A stretch of 33,213 nucleotides of DNA from Candidatus Kapaibacterium sp. (GTDB taxonomy: Bacteria; Bacteroidota; Ignavibacteria; Kapaibacteriales; Kapaibacteriaceae). The position numbers and the translations under genes were made by a program. Positions 1,632 through 33,213 of this stretch are shown piece by piece; position 1 is the stretch's first letter, and every line of letters begins with the position of its first letter. The notes beneath the pieces were generated by a model. That model made no database searches. It had not been told where the DNA came from and saw only the letters and a program-made list of their open reading frames with translations. The stretch is from positions 12,951 through 46,163 of the forward strand of contig JAPLFN010000113.1 in NCBI GenBank assembly GCA_026390655.1. Reading direction: 5' to 3'.

Positions 1632-2708
1632 TCAATTGAATCGCATCGCGATACTAAGACGATTGATCAGGCCAAGATTTTTGGTCGGGTTGATCGAATA
1701 ATCGATCTGACCATCAAAACCACCACCATTGTATCGGATACCAAGGCCACCGGCAAGACCAAACTGGTCAGAACCAAAGCGGTACCCACCGCGGATGCTT
1801 ACAAATTCTTTCCACGTGTATTCCGTACCGATGGCAAACTGCTCCGGAACGTCGCTGTAGGTCTCAAAGTCGAATGCCGTAGTCCACGAATGTTGCAGTA
1901 CGCCGTCAGCGTCAACTTCTTGCTCAAAGACTGCCCCTTTACAGAGATCGACCCCTACACCGGCACGAAATGATAGCGGCATACTAAACGACGATGTTTG
2001 TAACTGCATATCCAAGGGGCTAGTATTAATTCCCTTGAACGGCGGGTTGGTGCGTGTTACGTCTGGTCCATCATACGCCTGTTGTGTGCCAAGCGAGTTG
2101 ATCGAGAAACCAAGAATCACACCATTGAAGCCTGTATTGTATCTGGTTCCGATATCGAACACAAATCCAGAGGCCGACATCGTTGTAAACGCATGCTGAA
2201 CATACTTTGCTGTGGCTCCAAACGAAAACTGTTCGGTGAGGTATCCGGCAAGCGTTAAGCCAATGGCAATATCGCTCACGTTATAGATACCGCCCGTGCC
2301 ATCTTGTTGTGCAGTGGTTGTTACATTAATATCACCGCTACTGAAACCTGTAAAGCTTGCTCCGAGTCGAAATTTTTCACCTACCGGGATCGCAATGGCC
2401 GCGAAGCTATGCGTCATCCCCCCGAACCAAAACGTCTGGCTAAAGTCGGCGGCGTAGCGCTTTACATCAGCAAGACCAGCCGGATTCCAAAAGATGGACG
2501 TTACATCGTTGGACAGCGCAGAAAACGCGCCGGCCATACCAGTACCGCGTGCACCAACGCCGATCTTAAGAAACTGTCCGCCCGCAAGACCCACCTTTGT
2601 GAAATCTCCGGCAGTTACCGAGATGATCTGCGAAGAAGCCGCCACTGTAGTTAAAGACAGAATGGCTATGGCAAGTGTAAGGCGCGAGAAAGTATTTTTG
2701 ATCTTCAT
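1632..2708 (-). CDS. PorV/PorQ family outer-membrane beta-barrel protein
   Basis: A 358-residue protein with a signal peptide (MKIKNTFSRLTLAIAIL... cleaved near AASSQ). After it comes the hallmark block FLKIGVGARGTGMAGAFSAL and then TSIFWNPAGLA, typical of the PorV/PorQ/UPF0164 family related to FadL barrels. The rest alternates short amphipathic strands and ends in RFN, consistent with an outer-membrane barrel. PorV shuttles T9SS cargo to the attachment complex and PorQ is another T9SS barrel; multiple paralogues are usual in this group, so this may be a cargo-specific copy. The start at 2708 is preceded by a clear AGGAGA Shine-Dalgarno sequence; an upstream ATG at 2735 has no such support. 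It lies 10 nt after a giant surface protein gene, probably in one operon. Confidence 0.8.
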   Translation of the reverse strand: MKIKNTFSRLTLAIAILSLTTVAASSQIISVTAGDFTKVGLAGGQFLKIGVGARGTGMAGAFSALSNDVTSIFWNPAGLADVKRYAADFSQTFWFGGMTHSFAAIAIPVGEKFRLGASFTGFSSGDINVTTTAQQDGTGGIYNVSDIAIGLTLAGYLTEQFSFGATAKYVQHAFTTMSASGFVFDIGTRYNTGFNGVILGFSINSLGTQQAYDGPDVTRTNPPFKGINTSPLDMQLQTSSFSMPLSFRAGVGVDLCKGAVFEQEVDADGVLQHSWTTAFDFETYSDVPEQFAIGTEYTWKEFVSIRGGYRFGSDQFGLAGGLGIRYNGGGFDGQIDYSINPTKNLGLINRLSIAMRFN

Positions 2709-2718
2709 AGTGTTCTCC

Positions 2719-5700
2719 TTACTCCCCATCGCCAATTATTCGAGCAGGCCCTACAACAACCGAGAACTTGCGTATCACGCTTGCCCCTTCGGGTGTTTCG
2801 ATCTTCGCAATGAGCATTTGACTTGCTACGCGCTGCTTATTCTTCGACAGTAAGGTCCACACATCCGCGGCTACTTTATCCGGAGCCGGGCTTGTGAGCT
2901 CATTGTGGTTGATCGTTTGAACGAGCGCACCACTGACGGAGTAAATGTGGATCGTACACACCCTCGGTAGCCGCGTAAAGTATATCTGTCCTTGGAACGG
3001 AGTGCTCATTCCTTCTTGAGAAACATAGAAGGGATTTGGCACTACTTGAACCTGCTCAAGATCCTTATCAGAGTACGACTGTGATCCCGTTGACGCTGTA
3101 TACGCGTCGTAGGGCGCGACTCGTATGTATGCCTTGGCACTATCAAACGGGAATCCAAATGCTCCGCCGAATGTCGTTAATCTAATCTTGTCTCCCGCCT
3201 TGAAGTCCTCGTTAGGCAGAACATCCGGGTGATTACCTGCTGACGGAGGATTAGGAATTGCACCCGTCGTTGAAAGTTTACGCCCCTTGCGTGAGAAGTC
3301 AACGACAAATTGACATCCGGCGATCGTGATCACGTGAAGGAAGTCAAGAGTGTCGGTGCCTGTTGTTGAGACATTTCGCGACCTGTAGTACCTCAACTGC
3401 TTTCCGAGTGGATTGCCGGTGTTTGATTCCGCTGCATAGGGCTTCAATGCGACCGCACCCCAGTTATCCAGGTGTGCATTTCGCCAGCCATATGCCGCTG
3501 TGGCAAAGTTCCCTATCCGAACCTCGGCCACAGTTGGGAAGTCCTTCTTGCGGTCCACTGGAGTAGCATTGTAGTCAAGCTCCTGAGGCTGGTATGCGAG
3601 TTCATAACCAACCTTTGCAGTCCCTATTGTACCATCAGGTTGCGGATCCTGGCGATCAAACGAATAGACGTTCTTGATCTCATACGTTAGGTATGGAACA
3701 TTCGGGAACGTCATCGTTGAGTCTTTACCCGCATCCGTCGTGCTGTTAAGCAAGAACTTTGTAGTTAAGGTCTCGGTGCTACCTTCTTTAAACGTGACTT
3801 CATAGATGCCCGGGCCATTGTTATAGCTCACCGTCCAAGGAAACTGCGGAATAAATCCAGGATACGGCAACTGTATATATGCAGGAGCTGGATTTAACAC
3901 ATCACTCGCATAGACTGATGCGATTGATTTTCCGAGTCCAACGTAGATGTTGTCCGGGCCACTCACGGTATAACCGGAGTCTAATCGGTACAGACCTCCC
4001 CATTGCTCTATAGAATAGTCGAACGCAATGCCCAATGCACCGAAGGCATACTTCTCCGAGAAGCACGCCGCATTTGACGTATAGGTCCCGGACCGAATGA
4101 CTTTTTCTCTCGAATCATCTCTGCCAAAAGTTGTCGTGTCAATTCTCTCGACTTTGCCACTTGAGGTAAACACTGTATCATAAAACACACTGTCGGGCTT
4201 TACTCCAACATAGACGGAAGATCGCTCGGAGAAATATCCCGGCAAACCTGTCACATTCGAAGTAGGGCAAAGCTCTGGCGGCAGAAAGCTATTCCATTGG
4301 TTTAAAGTTTCACGCGTTGCAGAATCGCGCAACAAGAACACCACCCCGTAGAGGCCATCTCCCGGATCAGTAGATGATGGAACGCTATTATAGCCACTCC
4401 AAAGTCGGAAGAACTCAAGCTCCAGAGTACGACCGGCAAAGAGCTGGTTGAACCGTTGCTGGTCATCGACTAGAAGTCGAACATTGTAAATACCACCAAG
4501 CTTCTTTCTGGTCTGGTCATCTGTGGTAAATGAGAATGAAACTGCCTTACCAGGGCGCGCAGCAAGCGGAGTTGCCGTCACAACATTAGGGAGGCCAACC
4601 GCGCGGCTATTTAGCTTTGATTGTGTGGGCAGGAGGTAGTCACCCTCGTCATATGCGCGCACCGCATACGTATAGTCGATGTTATTGATAAGCTTTTCAC
4701 TGGCTTCTGGATCCGTGGAGTACGAAACCACTCCATTTCCATTATCATCACCAACGTCGAAGAAAACTCGCCCTGCAGATTGCTCGCGGATGTACCGCGC
4801 AACAATACCCCTACGCACCTCATTTGTTTCTTCCCAGGGCCTTTGCAGTCGAACATACGTCGGTGTGCCGATGGCACTATAGTTTGTGTCCACATCCGGG
4901 AAAAGGAACGGGTCCATCTTCACTCGGCGAAGGAGAATAAGCTTAACGAGCGAGTCCTTGGCTGCCTTTGCCGGGAGACTATCCAATCGCAAATAACCAG
5001 GACGACCTTGAAAAGGCACTCGACCAACAGTTGGCAGCGTTTCTACCAGCGTTGTCATGTACGTGAACTGAACGGAATCCAATTTGTAGAAGTTTGGCGA
5101 GCCATTCTTTTCACCTGAAGTAACCACGGTACTGTCGGTATTTAGATAAACGTCGAAAAACGGGTCAACCCTGCCGAGTCTTGGATCTGCATGTGGGATA
5201 CCTCGTGCATTCCGCAGTCTCGCGTAATAGTTGCCCCATGCCGGAGCGTTAAAGTTCAACGTGCGAGCCACTAAGAATCTTTTCTGCCCTGGCTTGATCA
5301 CGTCTGCAATGGTCAGCTGATCCCTCCGAACGCCCGTAATACCAATTGCATCCCCTTCCTTTACAAAAGGAGTCCCGACATCAAACTGAGCGATCTGCTT
5401 CCAGGATAGAGGCCCCTTCCGGGCATTTTCTTGAAAATCGATTGCAAAGGTGTCCTGATCGGTGCGGCGTGCACGATAAATTCTGTATCCCATGAAGTCG
5501 AGACCACGCTCAAGCGTATCAACCGACATCTCAGAGGTTGAGTCCCATTGGATCGCAATAGCATTGTTGAGTGAGAGGTACCCTTCAGGCGGGATCGTCA
5601 TGAAACTATTGACGCCTGTGGTAGAGCCCTTTGGTGCACCTTTAATTGTCGATGTCTCAGGGGGCTTGGGGGCACGGAATTGATTGTCGTACACAAACTG

Positions 5701-7104
5701 TGCGAACTTTACCTTGCGGACAAGCTCTGTCATATCTTCCACGGTGCCAGTAGCGTCTCCGCCAAGACCAGTACCTGCTAGAATGATACCAACAACAATT
5801 CGAGCAGAATCTCCGGGGCGCATGTTGAAAGGTCCGGTAGCCATCATGAGCCTGCGATCACCTGGTCCATTATCAGTATCGAATGTGCCTCTCGAAATGA
5901 AGTTGTATCTATCTTCATTTTCAATTGGGTCTTCTGTGATAGGCCAATTTCGCATGGTACGAAGGCCAAGCTGTTCATTCAGTGGGAACTGCTTCCGATC
6001 CTTCCGTATGAATTTATCTGCATCAATTGCAGGGGATTCAAGGAAATTAAATCCTAGGTAGCCAAACCCTTGGCCTGCCTCTCCACGATCTGCATTACTC
6101 CACTGCACTGCAAGATTTAGAGTCGGGTCTGTATCGTAATACTTTGCGCGATCATTCTGTGCCCCAGCCGAAGAATTGGTCTGAAGAGCAACATCCACAT
6201 CCTGAACTGCCGCCATCCAACAATCGAACAGTGTATCACCGAACTTCTTGGGATGGATAAACAAATACTTCAGGAATAAGAAATCGGCATAGTCACCAAA
6301 ACCCCATGAATAGATGATCTGCTCAACTTGCATACCAAGAGGAAAACCTTCTGCTTTACGCTTCGTGGTGCCCCCTTCATAATAGTTGAGGTCGGTGTCC
6401 TTATACGTGCAAAAGACATCTTCCTCTGAGATGAAGGCCGGACCCTTTGTGTAGTTTGTCTTATATCGAAGCGTCGGGTCGTTGACGTAGTCGCCATAGT
6501 AGTTGTTATAGCGAATCGTGTCGTTTGGTGACGTGTCCCAAATGGGCCAACGCGGGAAGGTCGGATTTTGAAAGTCGTTTCCCTCATTCGAACTGAAATC
6601 CGTAGAGAAGTATGTCCTGAACTTGTTAATTCCTTGATCAGTAGATGTATTTACTAACGCGCCATCTTCGATCGTTCCCGGCACCATCCACGATCTGCCT
6701 GAGTTCGGGTTATACGTGATCATTACACGCTTGCGCAGCGAATCTGATCCTGGCGGACGCTTGCGAGTGCCGAACCATGCGCCACCAGCAAAAATGTATT
6801 GGTTCCGACGTCCACGTGGCCAGAATGTCCCGCCAACACCATTGGCGACATCAAATCCTACGATGCCGTAATTGGTCGTCTGGAAATCTACGTTTGAAAC
6901 AACATTCTTTTGCTGATCAAAGGTGCCTCGAGGCGTTCGCTGAACGCTTTCGTTGCCCTTGTCTGCTCTCTTTGCTACGACAGTACTTGTGCCCGCAGTT
7001 CCTGCGATCAAGGCTGCCGATGTACATGCAAGGAACATGACCACCGTAATGCTGCGCATCCATGTTTGATTCATGACATCTCCATTGTGCTTCTTCGTAT
7101 TCAT
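2719..7104 (-). CDS. Giant exported surface protein of unknown function, T9SS-type C-terminal region
   Basis: About 1461 residues, with a signal peptide (SITVVMFLACTSAALIAG). Two starts are credible: ATG 7104 (preceded by GAGGAAGAAC) and ATG 7074 (preceded by GGAG). The N-terminal domain has NVDFQTTNYGIVGFDV and a Gly/Trp-rich RNQYIFAGGAWFG, a pattern I associate with large uncharacterised surface proteins of Ignavibacteria-like bacteria. Mid-protein segments such as DFMGYRIYRARR suggest fibronectin-like sandwich domains. The C-terminus has VVPNPFYVS followed by IHIYSVSGALVQTI, which matches the start of a T9SS sorting domain, but it ends in a longer tail (VVVGPARIIGDGE) than usual. Adjacent genes encode a TonB receptor (17 nt upstream) and a PorV-like barrel (10 nt downstream), so secretion by T9SS via that barrel is a reasonable inference. 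No enzymatic motif was seen. Confidence 0.75.
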   Translation of the reverse strand: MNTKKHNGDVMNQTWMRSITVVMFLACTSAALIAGTAGTSTVVAKRADKGNESVQRTPRGTFDQQKNVVSNVDFQTTNYGIVGFDVANGVGGTFWPRGRRNQYIFAGGAWFGTRKRPPGSDSLRKRVMITYNPNSGRSWMVPGTIEDGALVNTSTDQGINKFRTYFSTDFSSNEGNDFQNPTFPRWPIWDTSPNDTIRYNNYYGDYVNDPTLRYKTNYTKGPAFISEEDVFCTYKDTDLNYYEGGTTKRKAEGFPLGMQVEQIIYSWGFGDYADFLFLKYLFIHPKKFGDTLFDCWMAAVQDVDVALQTNSSAGAQNDRAKYYDTDPTLNLAVQWSNADRGEAGQGFGYLGFNFLESPAIDADKFIRKDRKQFPLNEQLGLRTMRNWPITEDPIENEDRYNFISRGTFDTDNGPGDRRLMMATGPFNMRPGDSARIVVGIILAGTGLGGDATGTVEDMTELVRKVKFAQFVYDNQFRAPKPPETSTIKGAPKGSTTGVNSFMTIPPEGYLSLNNAIAIQWDSTSEMSVDTLERGLDFMGYRIYRARRTDQDTFAIDFQENARKGPLSWKQIAQFDVGTPFVKEGDAIGITGVRRDQLTIADVIKPGQKRFLVARTLNFNAPAWGNYYARLRNARGIPHADPRLGRVDPFFDVYLNTDSTVVTSGEKNGSPNFYKLDSVQFTYMTTLVETLPTVGRVPFQGRPGYLRLDSLPAKAAKDSLVKLILLRRVKMDPFLFPDVDTNYSAIGTPTYVRLQRPWEETNEVRRGIVARYIREQSAGRVFFDVGDDNGNGVVSYSTDPEASEKLINNIDYTYAVRAYDEGDYLLPTQSKLNSRAVGLPNVVTATPLAARPGKAVSFSFTTDDQTRKKLGGIYNVRLLVDDQQRFNQLFAGRTLELEFFRLWSGYNSVPSSTDPGDGLYGVVFLLRDSATRETLNQWNSFLPPELCPTSNVTGLPGYFSERSSVYVGVKPDSVFYDTVFTSSGKVERIDTTTFGRDDSREKVIRSGTYTSNAACFSEKYAFGALGIAFDYSIEQWGGLYRLDSGYTVSGPDNIYVGLGKSIASVYASDVLNPAPAYIQLPYPGFIPQFPWTVSYNNGPGIYEVTFKEGSTETLTTKFLLNSTTDAGKDSTMTFPNVPYLTYEIKNVYSFDRQDPQPDGTIGTAKVGYELAYQPQELDYNATPVDRKKDFPTVAEVRIGNFATAAYGWRNAHLDNWGAVALKPYAAESNTGNPLGKQLRYYRSRNVSTTGTDTLDFLHVITIAGCQFVVDFSRKGRKLSTTGAIPNPPSAGNHPDVLPNEDFKAGDKIRLTTFGGAFGFPFDSAKAYIRVAPYDAYTASTGSQSYSDKDLEQVQVVPNPFYVSQEGMSTPFQGQIYFTRLPRVCTIHIYSVSGALVQTINHNELTSPAPDKVAADVWTLLSKNKQRVASQMLIAKIETPEGASVIRKFSVVVGPARIIGDGE

Positions 7105-7121
7105 AGTTGTTCTTCCTCGCA

Positions 7122-10100
7122 TCAAAATCTAAATGCAACAGCGAAGTACGCAGTGCGAGGGTATTGATAATTGGGACGTCGTGCAATCACATCATTCTTG
7201 TATTCGAGATAACCCATGTATGTTTCTTCAGGCGTCACGCGACCGTCTCTGTTAAAATCAACGAGGGGTTGATACAATCTCTTGCCGACCCGATCATACT
7301 GATTTGTAGAAATCGTCGCCTTGTTTCCCGGATCAGCTTTTTCGTAATACGTCACTGCAGGAAAGTCCGACGGCTGGCGAGCCAAGGAATTCCCATCAAG
7401 ATCCGGACTGCCCGTTGTAGGATAGAAGAATATGGCATTCGTGAAGTTGAACAGGTTGGTAACGTCGAGCGAAATATCCACCGCGGTGTGACCACCAAGG
7501 AACCCATCAAGTGGTATTGTTCTCGTAATACGCATTTCTGAACTCCAGTTCGATGGGTATCGCGCAGAGTTGATCTCACCCGCGGACTGTCCGCGGAGGT
7601 TCACCGGTGTGTATGGCAGACCAGTTTGCCATGAACCGGAAACATTGATGTTGAAGTATTCCAAGAAGGTTATGCCACCGATCGACGGGCCTTCATCATT
7701 ACCCCAACTGAATCCAAAGGATCCATTCACACGATTGCGGATATCAAAGTCGAGTGGGAAGTCGGTTACAGGGTAAGCGGGTTGGCCTGTATACGGATCG
7801 AGTGCAACGGATGTACTGCTTGCATTTGCGGTTCCGCGAGCAGAGCTCAAGGTATAATTTACGTTGAACTGCCAGTTGTCTGTGAGCCGATTTTGGAAGG
7901 TGAATTCCACTCCGCGAGAGCTACCATAGTCTGCAAGAACCCTTTGGTAGAAAGGAACCGGAACAACGCGCACGTACGCTAGGCCAGACTGATTGTAGAT
8001 GTCCTTGTAGTAACCAGTAACCGTAATAGCGAGGTTATCCGTCAGCTGTTGATTGTACGCCACCTGGTACTGATTTGTCCGCTGCATTTCCATGTTCGGA
8101 TTTCCGAGCGTTTGGCTTCCACGAAGTTGAAAGGCATTGAACGAGTCGTAAAAATCAGACCAAGGTGGTGCCTGGTAATAGACTCCGTATGACAGTTGGA
8201 AGTTCTGACGTTCCGTGATCGGGAACGTGATAGAAATACGAGGGCTGATATAGAGCTTAGCTTTTGCAGTAGAAAACCCAACTGTATCGCCAAAGGGATA
8301 GAATTGATCATAACTGTTACGGTAAAGAGCGTCTGCATTCAAATAGTCAAGACGAACACCTGGGGTAAACACAAGCCCCTTAAAGATGATCTGATCTTGC
8401 ACAAACAATGCGCCGGTTGTTGGCGTGTACGGCTTCTCGGACTCTGCCTTTGCTGCCACTGCCTGAGGGTTGCCGTCCTGAGTGTCGAAATAAAGGTTGC
8501 CACCATACAGGTTGCCATATACGTCGTAGAACGGGGCACCGTCCCAAGGTGAGCTGTTAGAGTGCCGTGCCAAATTCAAAGAGCGGAATTCGAAGCCGGC
8601 TTTGAAAACGTGCCGTGTATCACCGAACTCTTGAGTACTTGTGATGTTTCCATCCACCTGAAAGAACTTCGCAACTCTGAAGTCAACGCCACCTTCGTTA
8701 CCATGGGAAGCAAAGTAACTGTACAATCCGTACGGATTATTCGTCGATTGGAAATCGGGTGGGCCTTCTACGTAGCCAGTGATGGGGTTTCTTTTTGTGG
8801 TCTCAATTTTCACATAACCATCTTCGGTATATCCTGTCTGACGGAGATAGTCATACGGATCGAGAATCTTGTTTGATTCGCCGTTGATATAGGCCGAGTC
8901 ATTGAATGACATGTTGTCGACGGGATAGTAAAGATCAAAGCCGTTGAACAACCCGGGCGCGTCCAAAGATTTTCTCTTGGCCGTTTCCGTGGTCTTGCCG
9001 TTGTATGAACCCCGGATTTCATAGACAGTGGAAGAACCGAGTGTGTGATTGATCTGTGCAAATGCATTTGAGCTGAACTCTTGAACCACGATCTGTTTAG
9101 CGTTCCGTTCAGGAGTTCCGTTTGGCTGTGCACCAGCGATCACGTTCCCCGCCTGGTCCGTGGCATATCCCTGATCGTTTGCATACATCCACGACCAGCT
9201 GTTTCGTTCGCCATTGACAAGGCCGTACATACCACCAACCAACAACGCGACGTTGTCGTCCAGTTGGAATCTCATACGTCCGGTAATATTCCTCGACCAG
9301 GTCCTATTGTTTGGCTGCATCCCGAGGTTGTTGCCAATTGGGTCAAGAACCTGTAAACCAAAGTTGCGGTAATTCTGATACGTGTTGCGAACCGCTATGA
9401 AAAACGTAGAGCGATTGAATCCAAGAGGTCCACCGAAGGTTACGTCCACTACATCTTCTAATGGATAACCGGCCTCAATCCCATTTCCTGCCTTACCGAA
9501 TAGAAACGGAACGTCCTTGCGCCACCGCACGAGACCTTCATACTTGTCTGTCTTACCCGTCTTTACAACTGTGTTGACAATACCACCGATAGCGTTGCCA
9601 TACTCCGCTCCAAAGCCACCCGTTTGTGCTTGCACTTCTTGAGTAGCAAATGGACTTGGCATCGCGGCTGAGACTGTAGATCCAGAATTTCCAAGACCAC
9701 CGGTAAACTGATCGGTTACCGTAAGGCCGTCTACAAGAACTTGCGTTTCTGTTGTACGCGAACCACGAACAACGAAGTTATTACCTGAGGCTCTGATACC
9801 GGCGTTGAGTCCAAGAGCCGACGCAACGTTATCGCGCGCGATCTTCGTCATGTCATCACCAGACATTACACGTGCTGTACCAACATCAGTTGAGCGGATC
9901 ATTTCACGCTCGGCTGAAACGTCGATCGTCTTCATTCGCACACCACCCTGGGATACCGTAAAGTTCACGGCAAGGGTTTGGTCGGCGACAATAGTCAGGC
10001 GCTTCGTGACCGTGTCAAAGCCCACGGCTGTGACGCGAACGTCATACGAGCCTGCGGTGATGTTCACAATCGTGAACTTTCCATCCAGCTTTGTGATGCC

Positions 10101-10256
10101 ACCACGGGTGGTCTCTAGAACCTTAACCGTGGCTCCGGGGACGGGCTTGCCATCTTTATCCGTGACCTTTCCGGTCAGAATACCGGTAATGCCAGCCCAA
10201 GATGCTGTGGAGGCGGCAACAAGTATGATCGCAACAAGGAGGTACTGACGCACCAT
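7122..10256 (-). CDS. TonB-dependent receptor with carboxypeptidase-regulatory-like domain
   Basis: A 1044-residue outer-membrane receptor. The start at ATG 10256 is preceded by GAGGAGAAG and opens a signal peptide (MVRQYLLVAIILVAASTASWAG). Domains in order: a carboxypeptidase-regulatory-like beta-sandwich (residues ~23-105; GKVTDKDGKPVPGATVKV), a TonB plug (~125-240, with NFVVRGSRTTETQVLVDGL), and a long beta-barrel ending in aromatic YFAVAFRF. A perfect EF-hand-type loop, DFNRDGRVTPEE, lies near the C-terminus. The domain order matches SusC-like and related receptors, but no SusD partner is present; instead a giant surface protein and a PorV-like barrel follow. The substrate cannot be inferred. 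It lies 47 nt after the Asp-box T9SS protein gene. Confidence 0.88.
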   Translation of the reverse strand: MVRQYLLVAIILVAASTASWAGITGILTGKVTDKDGKPVPGATVKVLETTRGGITKLDGKFTIVNITAGSYDVRVTAVGFDTVTKRLTIVADQTLAVNFTVSQGGVRMKTIDVSAEREMIRSTDVGTARVMSGDDMTKIARDNVASALGLNAGIRASGNNFVVRGSRTTETQVLVDGLTVTDQFTGGLGNSGSTVSAAMPSPFATQEVQAQTGGFGAEYGNAIGGIVNTVVKTGKTDKYEGLVRWRKDVPFLFGKAGNGIEAGYPLEDVVDVTFGGPLGFNRSTFFIAVRNTYQNYRNFGLQVLDPIGNNLGMQPNNRTWSRNITGRMRFQLDDNVALLVGGMYGLVNGERNSWSWMYANDQGYATDQAGNVIAGAQPNGTPERNAKQIVVQEFSSNAFAQINHTLGSSTVYEIRGSYNGKTTETAKRKSLDAPGLFNGFDLYYPVDNMSFNDSAYINGESNKILDPYDYLRQTGYTEDGYVKIETTKRNPITGYVEGPPDFQSTNNPYGLYSYFASHGNEGGVDFRVAKFFQVDGNITSTQEFGDTRHVFKAGFEFRSLNLARHSNSSPWDGAPFYDVYGNLYGGNLYFDTQDGNPQAVAAKAESEKPYTPTTGALFVQDQIIFKGLVFTPGVRLDYLNADALYRNSYDQFYPFGDTVGFSTAKAKLYISPRISITFPITERQNFQLSYGVYYQAPPWSDFYDSFNAFQLRGSQTLGNPNMEMQRTNQYQVAYNQQLTDNLAITVTGYYKDIYNQSGLAYVRVVPVPFYQRVLADYGSSRGVEFTFQNRLTDNWQFNVNYTLSSARGTANASSTSVALDPYTGQPAYPVTDFPLDFDIRNRVNGSFGFSWGNDEGPSIGGITFLEYFNINVSGSWQTGLPYTPVNLRGQSAGEINSARYPSNWSSEMRITRTIPLDGFLGGHTAVDISLDVTNLFNFTNAIFFYPTTGSPDLDGNSLARQPSDFPAVTYYEKADPGNKATISTNQYDRVGKRLYQPLVDFNRDGRVTPEETYMGYLEYKNDVIARRPNYQYPRTAYFAVAFRF

Positions 10257-10303
10257 TATTCTTCTCCTCAAGGACTCGATGGACAGAGTTTCGAAATTTC
10301 GGA

Positions 10304-12322
10304 TCAACGCACGATCACAAGTGGAACTGCAGAACGGAGACCGTTCTGCTCAACGATGCAATGATATGTTCCTGCGCTTAGAGCATGGGTTGCCAAGACA
10401 ACATCCCACTCACCTTGTGTTGACGGACTTTGCGATGTCATGATGGTCTCTCCCAGTGTCGTGAGAAGAGACACGGTGATCGTACCACCAGTTACTGATG
10501 CGATGCGAATAGTCGCATTATCGCGTGCAGGGTTTGGCATAACGCTGATCGTAGCATGTAATGTGCGCTCTTCGTCAACGCTATTTACCGCGGTGAGTTT
10601 GGCAACATCATATGCAAGCATCATCACCTTTGCTGCCTCTGCTGGCAACTCCACGTTTGTCACGTGATCGCCCGGCGTTGTTGCCGCGCTATAGCCAATG
10701 TACATGCGACCGTTGATAACCTCGTCGCACAACGTACCATATTGACAGCTCACACCAGCCGGAGTGATATCGGTAGGTGCGGACCAAATGTTAAATCCTG
10801 CCGGCTTGTAGGTAGCCCATACATGACCGTTTAATCCATCAACTTGAGAGAGCGTGTCCGGCTCTGTTTGTTGATTTCCACCAGTTGTATCAGTTATAAC
10901 ACTGGTTACATCACCATTCTTCCAAGAGCCATACACGCAATAGATATCATTCGCGGCATTTATTCCAAGCTGTGGCCATCTGCTCGCACCATCAAAGGAA
11001 CGAAGATTCATCGGATACCCTGCACCGTCCCAAGCGGATCCACAAGGGGGCGCCATGAAATACAGGTTTTGCTCACCCTGCTTCGTGTAGAGCATTCCCA
11101 TTGATCTGATGTTCGCTCTCGTATTAACCACGAAGATCGAACCAGTGCGCGTGCCGTTTGTGTCTTTGCGAACAACATACGATGGAACCACTCCCATCAC
11201 GTAATGGGTAGCTCCATCACTGTCAATGATCACATCCACATGGCCATTAGGCGTAGGGACGGTATCGGAATACACGGAAAAAGTTCCATACTGATTGAAG
11301 GAGGAATCAATGTCCGTGTAGTTCGGCGAAAAGATAATTCTGGCACTGTCAGACGGCCACGTAGCACCACCATCTGTAGAAGTGCGCGAGAACAACCGCA
11401 ACGATCCATCTGTGTATGTGATCACTGCCTTGTTGCCTCGAGCAGTTACCGCGTACGTGTCACCGCCGAGTCCACTTTGGAGTGCCCCTTCAGGTGCGTT
11501 CGGACCCGTGAACAGAATCTCGGAGGCCCATGTGAAACCCCCATCTGTTGAACGACGGTAGGCAACTTGATTCTGAGCGCTTCCTGATATAATTGTTCTG
11601 TTGTAGATCAGGTGCGTATTGCCCTGCCCATCAACAGCTGCCCTAGCCCATACCGCGGAGTCAGATGGAGACGTTACTTCTTTTCGCAAAACCGGCTGAT
11701 CACCAAGACCAGAATTTCCGTAGAAACGGACTGGCGTATGCGATGGCGTGCCAATGTTTCCATCCTTATACTGAACAATCGACGGCCATCCGGCACGAAG
11801 TGTTTCAACTTTTTGCCAGTCATCAACGCCGAGCTCTGGTGCGTCCGGACTGTTGACAATAAGAAACGTGTAATGCGTTCCACGATTATTACCAGCGAAT
11901 CCCGGAATGCGTGTGGCAGCATCTCGTGTGCTATCCTTTGACGTCATCCACACCATTTGCACATACTTGTCTGGACCATCCGGTGTATACACGAGTCTGT
12001 TGGACATCGCACCGTTCGTTTGAAAGTCGTAATAGGTGAAGCCAACCTGAATTCCGGGTAATCCCGCTTGCACTGCGTCAACGATCTTCGGCATTGTGGT
12101 ATGAAGAATTGGAGACGTCACAGCCTGACGATACTCCTCAGCTCCGCCCGTTGTTGAAACATTACCAACGGTCTGCCGTACTGCGCTACTGATGGACTCC
12201 GTGGAGCGCGGAAGAGAGGTTGGTTGAACAACGATGGATCGCTGAGCAATCGTTGCCATACTGGCAGCAACGAAAACCAACAATGTAACTGACGTATAGA
12301 AGTGCGTACGTGAACGGTTCAT
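10304..12322 (-). CDS. T9SS type A sorting domain protein with Asp-box (BNR/sialidase-like) repeats
   Basis: A 672-residue secreted protein with a signal peptide (TSVTLLVFVAASMATIAQ). Two Asp-box repeats of the S-x-D-x-G-x-x-W type are visible: STDGGFTW (258-265) and STDGGATW (315-322), pointing to a beta-propeller like those of exo-sialidases and other BNR proteins. I did not find the sialidase FRIP motif or arginine triad, so enzymatic activity is not supported. Residues ~582-672 are a type A T9SS sorting domain: SVMPNPARDNATIRI, then LSAGTYHCIVEQNG and a final basic residue. It should therefore be exported and attached to the cell surface or released. The start is preceded by GGAG. It is the first gene after the sigma/anti-sigma pair (74-nt gap). 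Confidence 0.82.
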   Translation of the reverse strand: MNRSRTHFYTSVTLLVFVAASMATIAQRSIVVQPTSLPRSTESISSAVRQTVGNVSTTGGAEEYRQAVTSPILHTTMPKIVDAVQAGLPGIQVGFTYYDFQTNGAMSNRLVYTPDGPDKYVQMVWMTSKDSTRDAATRIPGFAGNNRGTHYTFLIVNSPDAPELGVDDWQKVETLRAGWPSIVQYKDGNIGTPSHTPVRFYGNSGLGDQPVLRKEVTSPSDSAVWARAAVDGQGNTHLIYNRTIISGSAQNQVAYRRSTDGGFTWASEILFTGPNAPEGALQSGLGGDTYAVTARGNKAVITYTDGSLRLFSRTSTDGGATWPSDSARIIFSPNYTDIDSSFNQYGTFSVYSDTVPTPNGHVDVIIDSDGATHYVMGVVPSYVVRKDTNGTRTGSIFVVNTRANIRSMGMLYTKQGEQNLYFMAPPCGSAWDGAGYPMNLRSFDGASRWPQLGINAANDIYCVYGSWKNGDVTSVITDTTGGNQQTEPDTLSQVDGLNGHVWATYKPAGFNIWSAPTDITPAGVSCQYGTLCDEVINGRMYIGYSAATTPGDHVTNVELPAEAAKVMMLAYDVAKLTAVNSVDEERTLHATISVMPNPARDNATIRIASVTGGTITVSLLTTLGETIMTSQSPSTQGEWDVVLATHALSAGTYHCIVEQNGLRSAVPLVIVR

Positions 12323-12380: not shown

Positions 12381-12398
12381 AATGGTTTTTAAACCATT
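12381..12398. repeat. DNA palindrome at the end of the anti-sigma gene
   Basis: AATGGTTT-TT-AAACCATT is a perfect 8-bp inverted repeat with a 2-nt centre. It overlaps the TAA stop of the anti-sigma gene and lies 59 nt upstream of the Asp-box/T9SS gene start. With so small a centre and no U-run after it (GTATATTGC follows on the minus strand), it looks more like a protein-binding operator than a strong terminator. A weak terminator cannot be excluded. Confidence 0.4.
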
Positions 12399-13590
12399 AC
12401 GGGGTGATTTGAATGCCTGCAACTGCACTCAGGAGAAATCCGACCGACGAGCTGTTAATGGTTCCTCCTGAGGACTGAATGCCGGAAGAGAGTGATCTGG
12501 CCTCAGCACCAATGGAAAATGAGAGCCACTTCTGAATTCGGACCTGCCCCGTCAACCGACCAAATCCAGTCAGCCCCACCTCATCTACGCCAACACCGGC
12601 CTTTGCCTGAAGCTCCCCGATGCTTGTTCGGAACAACGACTGTTGAATAAAGGCTGTGCCCCACAGGCGAGTAACGGACTGGGTTGTACTAAGTGACTGC
12701 TTTGTGTACTCATTTGGCGGTGCGGGCTCGAGTTTCGTTGTATGCCCATCTTCTCCATTGATTCGGCTGGCATGAACGGCAGAGGGATCGCGGTTGCTGA
12801 TGTTTGCCGTAGTCGAAACGGCATTTGCATACGAAAGAGATCCGAATTCCAAGCCGACCGTAGTGTTACTACTTACTTTGTAGCCTATGCTTTGTGCCAC
12901 GATGGTTGTGTTCGATAGCGATGGGTCACTGCTTCCAATTCCGGCTCCCACATAGGTGCCGAGAACCATGGCTAGGCTTGGCTTTGTTGGCTCTTCCACC
13001 CATTCTGGCTCTACCCGGACCGGATCAGTAGCCACGGGCACTGATACAACAGATGCCATTGCTTCATCTGTCGCCACTGGGAGATCCTCCACGAATTGAA
13101 TTTCGCTTGCTTGTGGAGTTGACGTTAGGCTTCCCGAATTGAATGTCGCCAGCGACAGTTCAGCTCTTGGCCTGGGGCCGACCAAGGTTCTGCTATCGAG
13201 GACGTCGGACTTATGCACGGCAGCCACTTCGGCCTTTTCTCCATCAATGAACAACAGATCGGGCTCACCAATGGGGATGCTGACAAGAAGAACAAGGGCC
13301 AAGGCCATTGCTAGGGGGCGCCCCATTCGCGAAACACTCTTAATGGCTGGGAGCTCCAATGGTGCGGCAGAAGCCTCAATGCGGGCAAAAACTGCCGTAA
13401 GAGTATCCCTTCTTGCGTCCTCCGGCACCTCAAAGGGATCGGCACATGACATGGCTATGTGAATCAGGATCGCGGCATCGAACGCTTCTTTCGCAGACGG
13501 GTCTTCCGACAACCGTTTCCGCAACTCCACGTCCTCCTCTATAGAGAGATCGCCATCAAGATATTTTGATACAAGAATATCGGGTATCAT
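12397..13590 (-). CDS. Probable dual-membrane-spanning anti-sigma factor (Dma-like)
   Basis: A 397-residue protein whose ATG overlaps the TGA of the ECF sigma gene (ATGA), the classical sigma/anti-sigma arrangement. Residues 1-75 (MIPDILVSKYLDGDLSIEED, then ELRKRLSEDP) are a soluble helical region like the cytoplasmic part of anti-sigma factors, but no HxxxCxxC zinc motif is present. One transmembrane helix lies at ~92-108 (PLAMALALVLLVSIPIG). Residues ~109-203 are a low-complexity Val/Glu/Pro/Thr-rich linker. Residues ~204-397 contain about eight amphipathic strands (for example YVGAGIG, NTTVGLEFGSLSY, GELQAKAGVGVDEVG, WLSFSIGAEARS, SVGFLLSAVAGIQITP), consistent with a small outer-membrane barrel. 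The layout (cytoplasmic domain, inner-membrane helix, periplasmic linker, outer-membrane barrel) matches the Dma anti-sigma factors described in Bacteroides thetaiotaomicron. Assignment rests on layout and neighbour, not on a database match. Confidence 0.65.
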   Translation of the reverse strand: MIPDILVSKYLDGDLSIEEDVELRKRLSEDPSAKEAFDAAILIHIAMSCADPFEVPEDARRDTLTAVFARIEASAAPLELPAIKSVSRMGRPLAMALALVLLVSIPIGEPDLLFIDGEKAEVAAVHKSDVLDSRTLVGPRPRAELSLATFNSGSLTSTPQASEIQFVEDLPVATDEAMASVVSVPVATDPVRVEPEWVEEPTKPSLAMVLGTYVGAGIGSSDPSLSNTTIVAQSIGYKVSSNTTVGLEFGSLSYANAVSTTANISNRDPSAVHASRINGEDGHTTKLEPAPPNEYTKQSLSTTQSVTRLWGTAFIQQSLFRTSIGELQAKAGVGVDEVGLTGFGRLTGQVRIQKWLSFSIGAEARSLSSGIQSSGGTINSSSVGFLLSAVAGIQITP

Positions 13591-14156
13591 TTTTCGTGCA
13601 GCACTACGGCTGCGAGAAGTTTGCGCATAGCAAGGCGGGCTCGGTGAACTCGAACCTTTGCCAATGAAAGGTCAATTGAGCAGATTTCGGCGATCTCCTG
13701 ATACGAATGTCCTTCGTACTCACGTAGGAGAAGCGCCTCTCTCAGGGTAACGGGTAGGCATCGCATCGCCCGATCGATCTCATCACGCAGTGCCACGTCG
13801 CCTTCAACGTCTTCTTTCCAAGCATGAGCCCCTTCATCAAAGGAGTCATGGGTCTTCCGTTGAGCCCTGATCACGTTGAGGCAGGTTCTGCGGGCGATGA
13901 CGAACAACCATGAGCGGACGTTATCGCCACGTAGTTCTTGGCGGTGCTCGTAAAAACGAATGAAGGTGTCCTGGAAAGCGTCTTTCGCAGCAGCCTCATC
14001 GTTGAGCATGTGCCTGCAGAAACGGTAGACTGCCGCCTCATAGAGATCGTAAATGCTTCGAAACGCATCGCGGTCTCCCACACGAAAAGCTGCCACCAAC
14101 GTGGACATCTCTTCAGATGGTATCGGTCTGCCAATATGGTTGGTTCTTCCGCGCAT
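13587..14156 (-). CDS. ECF-type RNA polymerase sigma factor
   Basis: A 189-residue sigma-70 family factor with only regions 2 and 4, the ECF layout. Region 2 is clear: DAFQDTFIRFYEH (residues 59-71) and RSWLFVIARRTCLNVIR (81-97). Region 4 spans ~134-180, with LPVTLREALLLREYEGHSY, the helix-turn-helix EIAEICSIDLSLAKVRVHRA and a basic end. It directs RNA polymerase to a dedicated promoter set and is probably held inactive by the anti-sigma protein encoded by the overlapping next gene. The ATG at 14156 has AGGA placed unusually close to it; an internal ATG at 14108 also precedes region 2. An inverted repeat sits immediately upstream of the start. No target promoter could be defined from this window. 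Confidence 0.92.
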   Translation of the reverse strand: MRGRTNHIGRPIPSEEMSTLVAAFRVGDRDAFRSIYDLYEAAVYRFCRHMLNDEAAAKDAFQDTFIRFYEHRQELRGDNVRSWLFVIARRTCLNVIRAQRKTHDSFDEGAHAWKEDVEGDVALRDEIDRAMRCLPVTLREALLLREYEGHSYQEIAEICSIDLSLAKVRVHRARLAMRKLLAAVVLHEK

Positions 14157-14160
14157 TTCC

Positions 14161-14186
14161 TGTCAACCGTGGTTGTAAGGTTGACA
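14161..14186. repeat. Inverted repeat overlapping the sigma-gene leader
   Basis: TGTCAACC (14161-14168) and GGTTGACA (14179-14186) form a perfect 8-bp inverted repeat with a 10-nt spacer. Its downstream arm ends 4 nt before the sigma factor start codon, touching the only Shine-Dalgarno-like bases (AGGA). It could be a repressor or autoregulatory operator, or an mRNA hairpin that limits translation of the sigma factor. No U-run follows it, so it is not a typical terminator of the upstream gene. Confidence 0.5.
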
Positions 14187-14204
14187 AGGCGGAAGAGCGA
14201 AGAG

Positions 14205-14912
14205 TTACACTTTTTGCAGGGAGACCACCCAACTGACGAGCGTGAAGGCACCCAGGATCAGACGCGTAATGAACCACACTACAGCTCCCACAACAATGCC
14301 GTATCGGCGGTGCAGGCCGCCCCACGTTGAAAGAGCAATTGCAATAGCTATGTATTGCCAAAGAGAGAAAAGGCTGATGCGCTGTAGCCATGTAAAGAGC
14401 ATGGGGGCATCAATGGGGCTAACAAACAACCCAGCATGAAGTCCGGCGCGAGCGGAATGAAAATAGATGTGTCCTGCAACAGAGACGAGAAGATCGAGAC
14501 CTTGGATTATCGCGGACGACGAGACCGCAACGATAGCCATGCTATACGTAACGGGTGCGTTGGTCATGAATCGCATAGCAATGAGAAAGAAACCGGCAAG
14601 CGCAGCCGTAGTTCCAATCGTGACCATCAACGCTCCGCCAAGTGCGCCAGTGAACTGTCTTTGCGGTGTTGATAGATCGAGTTGAGCGTCTTTTGCAACC
14701 GGCAACATTTCTGTGAGCTGGGAAAGTGTTCGTGACTCCGCCACAAGTGCGGGATCACCATTTTCAAGTATGGCACACCATGTACTTACTGCCACAATGA
14801 GCAAGACGGCTACGGCGAAGATCGCCGTAGCCGCTTGTGATGTTGCTTCCTGAACTCTCCAAGGAGCGCGAACTCCGTGCCAAAGTGCTTTGCCGGCTGC
14901 AATGATGCGCAC
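14205..14912 (-). CDS. Polytopic membrane protein, Yip1-like
   Basis: A 235-residue integral membrane protein with about five hydrophobic segments (roughly 28-47, 88-112, 120-147, 178-200, 208-232). The layout and the segment LFSLWQYIAIAIALSTWGG resemble bacterial Yip1-domain proteins, where a 'NPF..WQ/Y' stretch precedes the last helices; the match is weak. The start is GTG at 14912, preceded at a good distance by AAGGGG that overlaps the TAA of the upstream M16 gene (12-nt gap). It lies between the M16 peptidase pair and the sigma factor gene, so cotranscription with either is likely. No catalytic motif is visible; a role in membrane trafficking or transport is only suggested by the family name. 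Confidence 0.5.
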   Translation of the reverse strand: MRIIAAGKALWHGVRAPWRVQEATSQAATAIFAVAVLLIVAVSTWCAILENGDPALVAESRTLSQLTEMLPVAKDAQLDLSTPQRQFTGALGGALMVTIGTTAALAGFFLIAMRFMTNAPVTYSMAIVAVSSSAIIQGLDLLVSVAGHIYFHSARAGLHAGLFVSPIDAPMLFTWLQRISLFSLWQYIAIAIALSTWGGLHRRYGIVVGAVVWFITRLILGAFTLVSWVVSLQKV

Positions 14913-20212: not shown

Positions 20213-23200
20213 TTACTTCGAGATCGTCACATTCTTAGATACGACCAAGCCGTTGCTACGAAGAACAAGTGTGTATGTACCCGATGCTAATGTCGCTGCG
20301 TCAATTGATGCGCTGTGTGTACCTGCAGCAAATGAGCCTTGAGTAACAGTAAGCACTTCTTGACCTGCAACGTTCACCATGATGAGTTGAACGTCTCCAG
20401 CCGTTGTAAGCGAGAAGGATACCTTAGCACTGTTTGCAACTGGGTTAGGAGTTACGTCAGCTAGCTGAAGTCCCGCGCCTTCACCGTCGATCGTAACATT
20501 AACTTCTTGCGACGAAGAGCGTGCACCGTCCATATCGATTGCTGTCAAACGATATGTGTATGTGCCAGATGCGAGGTTCTCATCCTTGATCGAATAGTCG
20601 CGACGAATCGTTGAACTACCTGCCGCAGGTACCGTACGAACCGTAGCAAAGTCAGAAGATGAAGAAACTTCACCAGCCTTGGCACCTGAGATCATTGCGC
20701 GTTCAACGATGAAGTGATCGGTGTTCTTCTCTGTGGCAGTTGTCCAGAAAACATCCACATCATTCGTACGAGCCTTAGCATCGAACGATACAAGTGAAAC
20801 TGGAACTAATCCACCACCGTTTGATTCAAAGAAGTCGAAGATGCCTCGCACTACACGCTCATTACCGGTGCGGACACCTGTACGTGCGAAGTGACGCCAA
20901 TCAACACCAAGGTAGACAATGTTCGACGTGATGGCAGCAGTAGCCGTTCCCATGATCGAGTCAACCGTGCTACGATCGCCCGCAACGTACGAATATGCTG
21001 TGCTAGCAATACCCGGCGTGGTAGGGTCGGAGTAGATGCGGATCAATGCCGGAACTGGCTCAGCGTCATTAAATACCCCAGTACGGTCAACAAGCTCCAC
21101 GGAGTTGCGCGCAATTGCGTTACCAAATACACGACGTCCGCTATAGTTCGGTGTGAACGGAGTTCCTGGTGCCTGATTCACGGCACGGAGCACGCGCTGC
21201 ACGAAGTTGATATCGCTCGCTACCGTAGCACCTGAGTGCTGTGCAGGGAAGCCTTGACCAGAAATCGCAAGATTCTTCTTGTTACCTGGAACACCCGCTG
21301 AAACAAAGTTGCGAATATCATCACGCTCTGTGCGCGTTAGTGCAGTTTGGTCGTGTGACCAGAACGTTGTGTGATACATCGTGTAGTTCACTGAGCGAGT
21401 GGCCCAGGCGTTGCGCTCGAACACGTCGTAATCAAAACGATTGTTTGACGGATCGTTTACATATCCAAGATCTGCAAGTGCCTTCGTTACGCTGTCACTG
21501 TTGAGCTTACCAACAATCTCATTCACTGTAGGTGTTCCTACTAGAATGTTGTTGGCAGAGCCGCGGACACTGACGGCAATGCGGTTTGTAGACTTGCGAA
21601 GGAAGAAGCGGACGACCTTAGACTGAATATTGTTCGGGTTGAACTCATCAGATGAAGTCGTCACTTCTATACGATAACGAGGTGTTACGTTGATGCTCAT
21701 TGTGGAGAAGCGAGCAGGTACGTTATAGCCGGCCATGCCATAGTACGTTTGAGGCGTCCATGACGGGATGTTAAACACAACGTCCTTCGATTCACCTGAA
21801 GCAAGTGCAGTCGAAACCACACGATCAACAACCGGAGTGCCGTTCCATGTTGGAACAACTGCATCAGTATTGTTTGAGTTGGCTGTTTCGAGGTAGACAC
21901 GAACTCTAACCGGTGAATTCGTAGTTGCAAGACCACCATTATTGCGGATCCGTGATGTAACATCGATCGGAGCCGTTGTCATGATGTATTCTGCATCGCT
22001 CGTTGTGCCTAGTGCATCACGGTAGGCTGCCGGCTTGATGATGTCAATGACTTCGAGATCGCTAACGTAGAGACGACCGTCAAACTCATCAGCACCGATG
22101 TCATAGCCCAATCCAGCCTGACCACGCAGAGCTCCATCTATATCAAGAGTTGTGCCGGCCAGACGCTGGCCACGATTGTTGAGGATAGAACCAACTGGAA
22201 GTGGAGTAACATTAACACGAAGATTCTGATTAGGTGCAACACCGAGGAAAACATGCTCAGTGGTGAAGTCTCCCACAACGGAATTAATGTCCTGTGCCGT
22301 CCAGTTCCGCCATTGTGCGATTGTTGTGAACTCTGTTTGCGAACCAGCCGAAACAATTTCGCTCTTCTCTGAAATCTCAACAAAACGAGCGATGCCCGAA
22401 TTTGGAGCCCAAAACGCGTTCCGGTTGGAAACGAGAGCACCAGGGGCACCAGTCGGCAAGTACCATGCATTCACCTGACCATTACGGAACAGTGTTCCCT
22501 CATAGAAGATGGCCGACTGTGTAAGGCTTGCTGCATTCAGATTTGATTGCAACGAGATAGCATTGTTCATCACTACCGGCGTGTTCGCGTTTTGAACGCC
22601 AACACCAACGATAGCTCCCGTCCCAACTAAGTTGTCATTGCTAATTACTACCGTGTTGTTTACTACCGAGTCACCAACGGTGAAGTAGGTGAGAATCGAT
22701 GGCGTAACCAGCGCAGTTAGCGGATCTGCAGTTGTTGCGCGGCGTGTGTATACGTGGATACCAGCCATGCTCGCACCAGCTGCCCCACGTGTGAGACCCC
22801 AAACAGCATTGCTCGTAACATATGAGTGCTCTGGCTTATTCGGGAAGCTCACTGTTCCAGCTTGTGTACGTGGACCAAAGCCCTTGTTTGTAGCGTTGAT
22901 CGACTGATAGTCATTGCGACATTGTTCCACAACAACTCCACGGCTCCACGTATTACCGCGTACGCCGCTGATCTCGTTCTGCGCGATCATCAGGTTCATG
23001 TTGTTATAACGAACCTCACCACCTGCAAGGATACCGGCACATTCATTTTCAGTACCGCCCGTGGTAGCTCCGACGTTGTAGATACGGTTCGATGCTACCT
23101 TCACACCATCTTCGTATGCAACGAAGATTCCAGCGCGACGAACATTGAAGATGAGATTGCCTGTGATCTCCGTACCTGCATTGTAATATGGACGGAAGTC

Positions 23201-31832: not shown

Positions 31833-32582
31833 TTATGCGGTCGGTTCTTCAGCAGTTCTTGTCTTGCGTTTTCGCAGGGAATCGCCCTTGAGTTCGAGGC
31901 GATGAGCGTCGTGAATGATGCGGTCTAATATAGCATCGGCAATGGTCTTCTCACCGATGACTTCGTACCAGTTGTGAACCGGTACTTGAGAGGTGAACAT
32001 GGACGACCGCTTTCCGTGCCGATCTTCAATGACCTCCATGAGTATGGCCCGGCTCTGCTGATCTAAGGGTTGCATACCGAAATCATCGATGATGAGTAGA
32101 TCCTGCTTCTCCATCTTTACCAGTTCCCTAAGGTAGGACCCGTCGGCCTTGGCCAGCTTGAGGCGTGAGAAGAGCTTGGCGCTGTGTTCGTAGAGCACCT
32201 TGTACCCAAGCGAGCAGGCCTGATGTCCGATGGCAGAGGCGATGTAACTCTTGCCGATACCCGTGCTGCCGGTGATCAAGACGTTCTCTCTGCGTTCGAT
32301 GAATGTGCAATCGGCCAGGCGCAAGATCTGGTTCTTGCTCGCCTGACGCGTGTCAGCAAAGCTGATCTGTTCAACCATAGCCTTGTAGCGGAAGCGCGCG
32401 TTCTTGATCCCCCGCTCTTGCTTGCGGTTGGAGCGGTCGTCCCACTCTGCGTTGATGAGCCACTCTAAGAGCTCATCAGCCGTGTGGTTGACCGTTTTGT
32501 CTGCCTCTACGCTCATGGTGAAGGCACGAACCATGCCGAGCAATTTCATTGCCTTCATCTTCTCCAGTATTGCTTCATTCAT
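31833..32582 (-). CDS. istB: IS21 helper ATPase IstB
   Basis: A 249-residue AAA+ ATPase that assists the IstA transposase in target capture and strand transfer. Walker A is GSTGIGKS (105-112), Walker B is LLIIDDF (162-168), and a DnaC-like sensor region follows (SSMFTSQVPVHNWYEVIGE). The N-terminal helical region (MNEAILEKMKAMKLLGMVRA) is the usual IstB start. Length is normal for the family and the frame is intact, so the element may be active. The ATG overlaps the istA stop (ATGA). Confidence 0.96.
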   Translation of the reverse strand: MNEAILEKMKAMKLLGMVRAFTMSVEADKTVNHTADELLEWLINAEWDDRSNRKQERGIKNARFRYKAMVEQISFADTRQASKNQILRLADCTFIERRENVLITGSTGIGKSYIASAIGHQACSLGYKVLYEHSAKLFSRLKLAKADGSYLRELVKMEKQDLLIIDDFGMQPLDQQSRAILMEVIEDRHGKRSSMFTSQVPVHNWYEVIGEKTIADAILDRIIHDAHRLELKGDSLRKRKTRTAEEPTA

Positions 32583-33213
32583 GAGATTCTCCTTCCTTGC
32601 GCTGTTGATGGATCACGTGGTTTACGTGCTTGCTCGTCGGTGTCAGCGGCATTGCCGCCGGCCGGCGTGCCCTGGTCTGCGTAATAGTCCTTGCCTCTGA
32701 TGTTTCCATGCTCGGGCATCGTGCGTTGTTCATCGTCTTGCTCGGGGAAGGCATCAAGCCCTCGCTCCAAGATGTCGGCTATGGCCCGGTAGGTATAGAG
32801 CCCGCACAACTGCGCACGTTGGCAGGCCCGCTCAAGCCTGTCATGGCCCACACGCGAGGCAAGGGAAAGAATACCTTGACACGACTTGTAGGCCTGCTCG
32901 GGATGCGGCCGCCGGTTGAGGATCTCTGTCAGCAGAAGCTCCGCATGTGGCCCCACGACGCGGGCCCGGGCCAAGAAGTACTCCGGGTTCCAAGCGGCCA
33001 TCACCTGGTGGTGGCTGGCCAGGTGCGCCGGTAAGGTGGTGTAGCTATGCGCGCGGCGCGAGCGCGCATGGCTGGCTATCAGCTCAAAGCGGTAGTAGAT
33101 CTCTACCCGTGAAGCGCTGTAGACCACGCGCAGCTTCCGGCTGATGTAGGCGTACGGGATGCTGTAGTAGTGCTTGTCCGGGCTCAGGCTAACGTGGCCG
33201 TTCTTCAGGGCCG
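32579..33213 (-). CDS. istA: IS21 transposase IstA, C-terminal part
   Basis: The last 210 codons of the transposase, entering from the right edge of the window. In the frame running from the edge it reads ALKNGHVSLSPDKHYYSIPY and then AYISRKLRVVYSASRVEIYY, matching the post-catalytic Mu-transposase C-terminal beta-barrel region found in IstA ('v..d.hyysVPy.yi...v.vr.....veiy'). The DDE catalytic core would lie outside. Acidic and Pro/Gly-rich C-terminal residues (PEQDDEQRTMPEHGN...) complete the protein. The stop overlaps the istB start, implying translational coupling. Confidence 0.93.
   Translation of the reverse strand, partial: ALKNGHVSLSPDKHYYSIPYAYISRKLRVVYSASRVEIYYRFELIASHARSRRAHSYTTLPAHLASHHQVMAAWNPEYFLARARVVGPHAELLLTEILNRRPHPEQAYKSCQGILSLASRVGHDRLERACQRAQLCGLYTYRAIADILERGLDAFPEQDDEQRTMPEHGNIRGKDYYADQGTPAGGNAADTDEQARKPRDPSTAQGRRIS

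Follow-up and report, generated by a model that had tools for sequence, protein, structure and literature searches.

A single-chain anti-sigma protein of a Kapabacterial ECF sigma/anti-sigma pair, predicted to link the cytoplasm to the outer membrane

A 397-residue protein encoded in the window (the whole stretch of 33,213 nucleotides of DNA that was analysed) is probably an inner-membrane anti-sigma factor that links the cytoplasm to the outer membrane in a single chain and, as a self-reporting outer-membrane client, controls the ECF sigma factor encoded beside it. The evidence consists of the sigma/anti-sigma gene pair, a domain order and barrel fold read from the sequence and from an AlphaFold model, a conserved promoter, and synteny. 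The pair and the domains assigned to the anti-sigma protein are listed below by window position.

13587..14156, minus strand: ECF sigma factor, 189 aa, cognate sigma of the pair (Pfam Sigma70_r2, 2e-15; Sigma70_r4_2, 2.5e-15).
12397..13590, minus strand: predicted double-membrane anti-sigma protein, 397 aa (ORF, AlphaFold model, orthologues).
13366..13590, minus strand: predicted cytoplasmic anti-sigma domain, residues 1-75, class I (RseA/RsiW/RslA/ChrR-like), without zinc ligands (Foldseek, VIA, profile search, zf-HC2).
13267..13323, minus strand: single transmembrane helix, N-in, residues 90-108 (KD 2.31; flanking charge +2/-4; model helix 90-103).
12982..13266, minus strand: disordered periplasmic tether, residues 109-203, about 95 residues (pLDDT <50 for 105-201).
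12400..12981, minus strand: predicted eight-stranded outer-membrane beta-barrel, residues 204-397 (AlphaFold, VIA, strand alternation).

Both reading frames were found as an earlier, sequence-only reading had claimed them, an ECF sigma gene and its 397-residue partner overlapping through ATGA, both on the minus strand and together occupying window 12397-14156. No Pfam family matches the 397-residue protein above the cut-off, zf-HC2 appearing only below threshold (residues 6-24), and residues 7-105 give a weak match to the NCBIfam entry 'anti-sigma factor' (E 1.1e-4). A chance pattern of open reading frames is excluded, because more than 20 orthologous loci (18-51% identity) have the same domain order and the sigma neighbour. 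Aligned orthologues keep an N-terminal motif (Y10, D12, L15, D20), the transmembrane helix and a variable linker; their conserved C-terminal region includes G246, E248, G250 and G334, with G392 (position -5 from the end) nearly invariant. Across the order, the layout returns together with the sigma partner and, ahead of the sigma gene, an ECF-type promoter.

Judged by its nearest named relatives, the window's genome is Kapabacterial; in NCBI's present listing Kapaibacteriota is equivalent to Bacteroidota. Relatives of the anti-sigma protein were found by protein search in 29 of 60 related genomes, and by profile search in 92 of the 245 genomes of the class, some of the latter matching one domain only. 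Within the genus, the protein search gave a strong match in just one of ten other genomes, and the absence of the locus from most of them counts against the main explanation. The window's own genome (G000) holds a second system of the same layout on contig 5 (L093:1738-3516; anti-sigma of 394 aa), the barrel of which matches that of the window family with an hhalign probability of 91; among the ECF-like sigma genes inspected in this genome, only these two have a double-membrane partner. One locus (L043, JAGFIZ010000019.1) lies on a contig labelled Bradyrhizobiaceae, has a Kapabacterial gene neighbourhood, and is probably mis-binned or mislabelled. Outside the class, proteins of four genomes (G456, G329, G542, G382; loci L078, L081-L083) share the N-terminal anti-sigma-like domain and adjoin an ECF sigma gene; their C-terminal domain is, by eye, glycogen-binding-like (CBM48-like), with no barrel.

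At the N-terminus the AlphaFold model has helices at residues 3-11, 17-29, 31-48 and 57-74, the three-to-four-helix fold of known anti-sigma domains. With this domain modelled alone, about 18 of 22 Foldseek matches were anti-sigma chains or chains of sigma/anti-sigma complexes, none individually significant; they included RsiW (the best), RslA, MucA, ChrR, and SigK and SigH entries. VIA gave Z 7.6 for RsiW (rmsd 5.2, 67 aligned), a score that a helical domain could owe to a common arrangement, and Z 6.2 for MucA (rmsd 2.6, 51 aligned); because the domain is small and helical, such structural scores are modest taken alone. A profile searched against 177,635 PDB sequences returned just two matches at E<=10, RseA (0.18) and RsiW (0.5). 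The zf-HC2 family is matched weakly by 20 of 22 family members; in the window protein the match spans only the part preceding the zinc ligands, and the alignment shows no conserved Cys/His set corresponding to the ZAS zinc ligands. The domain thus looks like the RseA/RsiW anti-sigma domains on the agreement of independent searches and not on any single score, and residues 1-75 are predicted to bind the sigma factor.

The charges flanking the transmembrane helix follow the positive-inside pattern (+2/-4). The linker that follows measures 95-221 residues across the family (median 143) and is never shorter than 95; by our own conversion, 95 residues in extended form reach about 33 nm, sufficient to cross the periplasm. 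For the C-terminal part, AlphaFold, working from a 22-sequence alignment, gave exactly eight strands between residues 208 and 395, with pLDDT of about 90 outside the loops. Top rank in VIA-align went to Legionella porin III (Z 17.3, rmsd 2.5, 149 aligned), followed by NspA (16.8), OmpA (16.5) and OprF (16.3); the fold is the closed eight-stranded one of OmpA and NspA, with rmsd 2.5-2.8 over 141-149 residues for porin III, NspA and OmpA. The anti-sigma-like cytoplasmic region, single helix, linker of about 95 residues and eight strands that the sequence-only reading had placed in one chain are therefore borne out by the structural and profile searches, by the model and by charge and hydrophobicity; residues 204-397 came out as an OmpA-like barrel with no confident soluble sandwich, and the proposed double-membrane layout gains support from the helix, tether and outer-membrane-type barrel in the model.

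The same reading had taken the protein for a relative of Dma. As described in PMC13088901, Dma1 and Dma2 of Bacteroides thetaiotaomicron consist of an anti-sigma domain, a transmembrane helix, a long disordered tether and an outer-membrane barrel, their adjacent ECF sigma partners are Das1 and Das2, and the mutants reported concern envelope behaviour. Reference loci came from a Bacteroidales control genome, chosen by NigD, whose ECF loci were listed for dma1/dma2-type controls: L112, with sigma, a 425-aa anti-sigma and a divergent NigD lipoprotein, has the make-up expected for dma1; L117, with sigma, a 351-aa anti-sigma and a DUF4943 gene, matches the published dma2 locus. Relatives of these proteins were gathered and aligned as the Dma reference. 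The window protein has the Dma/Reo domain order, and BLASTP between it and a Dma-type protein gave nothing.

Kinship with Dma found no footing in the profile comparisons, the Pfam domains or the sigma tree. A weak whole-profile signal (prob 30) was lost once the domains were split and shuffled controls were run: both ends fell within the shuffled range, the anti-sigma domain of the window family against the Dma alignment at hhalign prob 0.7 (score 11.6, shuffled maximum 12.0) and the barrel at prob 0.4 (score 15.9, shuffled maximum 22.0). Pfam OMP_b-brl is matched by 23 of 23 Dma members and listed for none of 22 window-family members, whereas zf-HC2 is matched by 20 of those 22 and listed for no Dma protein. 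A tree was built from 65 sigma factors, its bootstrap not fully settled. It places the window sigma in a starred clade (97/87) with its counterparts from the orthologous loci and, at a wider level, in a group with the sigmas of the class's other double-membrane systems (97/91); the Das sigmas form a separate starred clade (100/99) with the window sigma outside it. Judged by this tree and its dma1/dma2-type reference, and not by a formal ECF21 model, the window sigma is not of the ECF21 (Das) type.

By these comparisons the window protein is an analogue of Dma/Reo and not a demonstrated member. It appears unlikely that it is a true, very diverged member descended from one ancestral double-membrane anti-sigma: the domain order is identical, the tethers are similar in length (median 126 in Dma, 143 in the window family), sigma and anti-sigma genes adjoin in both, both lie within Bacteroidota, and a larger, weakly supported sigma clade (80/74) holds both window-type and Das sigmas; against this stand the scores below their shuffled maxima at either end, the exchanged Pfam matches and the clade that the Das sigmas keep to themselves. 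Since its parts are unrelated to those of Dma/Reo by sequence, the protein is probably a separately arisen analogue, a likely origin and a simpler one than divergence past recognition; the two barrels may possibly be related at the level of fold.

The promoter of the pair and the genes around it are as follows.

14183..14209, minus strand: ECF-type promoter TGTAAC-N17-TGTC, 26 nt upstream of the sigma start.
14205..14912, minus strand: Yip1-like membrane protein, 235 aa, upstream; a conserved neighbour within family f1 only.
10304..12322, minus strand: T9SS-type exported BNR-like protein, downstream, with its own housekeeping-type TATATTG -10.
7122..10307, minus strand: TonB-dependent receptor (CarboxypepD_reg, plug, barrel), next conserved gene of the cluster.
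2719..7125, minus strand: secreted protein of 1468 aa with no hit in Pfam; across the order it is conserved immediately behind the receptor.
1632..2735, minus strand: PorV/PorQ-family protein (T9SS), by domain/family match.

ECF promoters carry AAC in the -35 element and GTC in the -10 element, and TGTAAC-N17-TGTC fits. Its -35 element shares nucleotides with the stop codon of the preceding gene. The promoter is present in every orthologous locus with upstream sequence (21 exact, one with 1 mismatch), and the spacer is invariant at 17 nt in all orthologues, which is good evidence for predicted autoregulation of the sigma operon. On inspection, the sigma genes of the contig 5 paralogue and of L080, L086 and L087 lack it. 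An inverted repeat (TGTCAACC...GGTTGACA; window 14160-14190, minus strand) lies between the -10 element and the sigma start codon; it is partly kept in the closest relative (L035) and absent in L031.

Counted genome-wide, the exact motif occurs 63 times in eleven genomes and the reversed pattern 59 times, no excess, and such counts were dropped as regulon evidence; the candidate regulon rests on position and gene type. Outside the eleven sigma operons, 12 exact sites in these genomes are positioned as promoters: three ahead of an accessory TonB gene (TonB_C 7e-20; 27-39 nt; G002, G012, G017), three ahead of the same secreted protein, orthologous between the window's own genome, G002 and G011 (40-55% identity), five ahead of exported, mostly T9SS-type, proteins, and one ahead of a protein that looks DUF2911-like by eye. 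In three cases (L177, L198, L196) the site is covered as well by a long ORF on the opposite strand, so that nine are strict; the target genes were classified after the hits were seen. In G011 (L173), the orthologue of the L170 secreted protein is apparently interrupted, by frameshift or assembly error, and its promoter motif is intact. Most of these genomes also have a TonB gene of a second type, which lacks the motif where readable; the own genome's sole match to this type is without it, which counts against the main explanation. The positioned sites are suggestive of a small surface-export regulon of TonB and T9SS-type proteins as putative sigma targets, and to that extent agree with the control of surface-protein export proposed from the sequence. 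A window site before the T9SS-sorted gene at 20213-25693 (GGTAAC-N17-TGTC, 1 mismatch) was rejected as a target, not being conserved ahead of that gene's orthologues in G002, G012, G013 and G017. Exact or near-exact copies also lie before the TonB receptor, inside the coding region of a T9SS sorting domain (window 10470-10496 and several f1 genomes), and are absent there in other families; they may be promoters, or a coincidence explicable by conserved codons.

In nearly all orthologous loci with enough sequence, the same TonB-dependent receptor gene lies behind the anti-sigma gene, either at once or with a gene for a T9SS-type protein in between, and relatives of the 1468-aa protein come next, while the upstream genes vary between families. 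Further along, the window encodes a GWxTD protein besides the PorV-like one; an IS21-type istB and a partial transposase stand at its end (31833-33127). The receptor cluster was rejected as a certain sigma target: what lies ahead of it is a housekeeping-type TATATTG/TATATTTG, and the cluster therefore need not be one. A FecR/FecA variant, in which the receptor (7122-10307) responds to a ligand, passing the signal to the anti-sigma protein, and the barrel serves mainly as an anchor, would account for the constancy of the receptor despite differing upstream genes and for the sigma's motif ahead of the accessory TonB in three genomes; it is rather improbable, given that the Pfam scans found neither an STN domain on the receptor nor a FecR domain in the anti-sigma family, the two marks of FecR-type cell-surface signalling, and that the receptor cluster sits behind its own housekeeping-type promoter.

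The barrel of the double-membrane protein is predicted to lie in the outer membrane. Within-strand shuffles reached the hydrophobicity alternation of its strands in 4 of 5000 trials for the window protein and in 13 of 5000 for the family mean. The C-terminal end resembles a beta-signal: nearly all members have Gly at -5, and hydrophobic residues stand at -2 and -4; orthologues end mostly in Leu or Phe, and the window protein's unusual terminal Pro, neither aromatic nor Leu, counts against the main explanation. That residues 204-397 form a soluble periplasmic barrel or sandwich sensor, the protein spanning one membrane, is very hard to credit: designed barrels, PsbO and avidin do appear in the structural list at Z of about 10-12, but outer-membrane barrels score Z 14-17 over the whole domain, the strands alternate, and the C-terminal end suits BAM.

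Under the single-chain, double-membrane reading, residues 1-75 would clamp the sigma factor at the inner membrane, the N-in helix would cross that membrane and the tether of about 95 residues the periplasm, and the BAM machinery would insert the eight-stranded barrel into the outer membrane. While the barrel is assembled, the sigma factor would stay bound; were assembly or the outer membrane disturbed, tether or barrel would become a protease substrate, and stepwise destruction of the anti-sigma protein (regulated intramembrane proteolysis) would free it. The freed sigma would transcribe its own operon from TGTAAC-N17-TGTC and a small surface-export set of accessory TonB and T9SS-type exported proteins. 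Sigma binding, the membrane location, the outer-membrane signal, the proteolysis and the role of the regulon genes as functional targets are what we infer. As precedent, EcfO-Reo of Bacteroides fragilis and Phocaeicola vulgatus has an anti-sigma described as reaching from cytoplasm to surface; in Phocaeicola its authors propose outer-membrane stress as the signal, and many genes induced by treatment with the toxin BcpT, the response to which induces this system too, are also induced by a BamA inhibitor (PMC9308784, PMC13114119). This envelope stress and inhibitor overlap supports an outer-membrane-stress mechanism.

Single-chain regulators extending from the cytoplasm to the outer membrane are thought to be very few, and the described ones found are all from Bacteroidales. 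We suggest, tentatively, that double-membrane anti-sigmas may have arisen at least twice in Bacteroidota from unrelated parts, and that the Kapabacterial barrel may be an outer-membrane-assembly test client driving a compact TonB/type IX surface-export regulon. If a second, sequence-unrelated family holds true, double-membrane wiring would be a reusable solution, and comparing two independent designs would make what such proteins sense testable. The autoregulatory promoter of the Kapabacterial family, conserved across an order, offers a direct route to the regulon in Kapabacteria still uncultured.

Compared with known systems, the window family shares a similar N-terminal fold, with weak sequence match, with the class I anti-sigma factors RseA, RsiW, RslA, MucA and ChrR, which stop short of the outer membrane, whereas the window family adds a tether and barrel; unlike the ZAS subgroup of class I, it has no zinc ligands. 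PorXY-SigP of Porphyromonas gingivalis likewise links an ECF sigma factor to T9SS genes, but SigP couples to a two-component system and controls secretion components (PMC4800418, PMC7712824), while in the window system a double-membrane anti-sigma would tie the sigma factor to cargo and TonB. In layout the Kapabacterial pair is like Dma/Reo. Dma shares with it the adjacent ECF sigma gene, anti-sigma domain, transmembrane helix, tether and barrel; its N-terminus, however, is of about 50 aa without a Pfam match (in the window protein, an RseA/RsiW-like domain of about 75 aa), its barrel is OMP_b-brl and that of the window protein is not, and its loci have NigD or DUF4943 neighbours, neither of which is present at the window locus. 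Reo, likened here by its description, is a cytoplasm-to-surface anti-sigma with a proposed envelope stress signal, as in the window system; the EcfO-Reo regulon consists of NigD lipoproteins, and that of the window system would comprise TonB and T9SS-type proteins.
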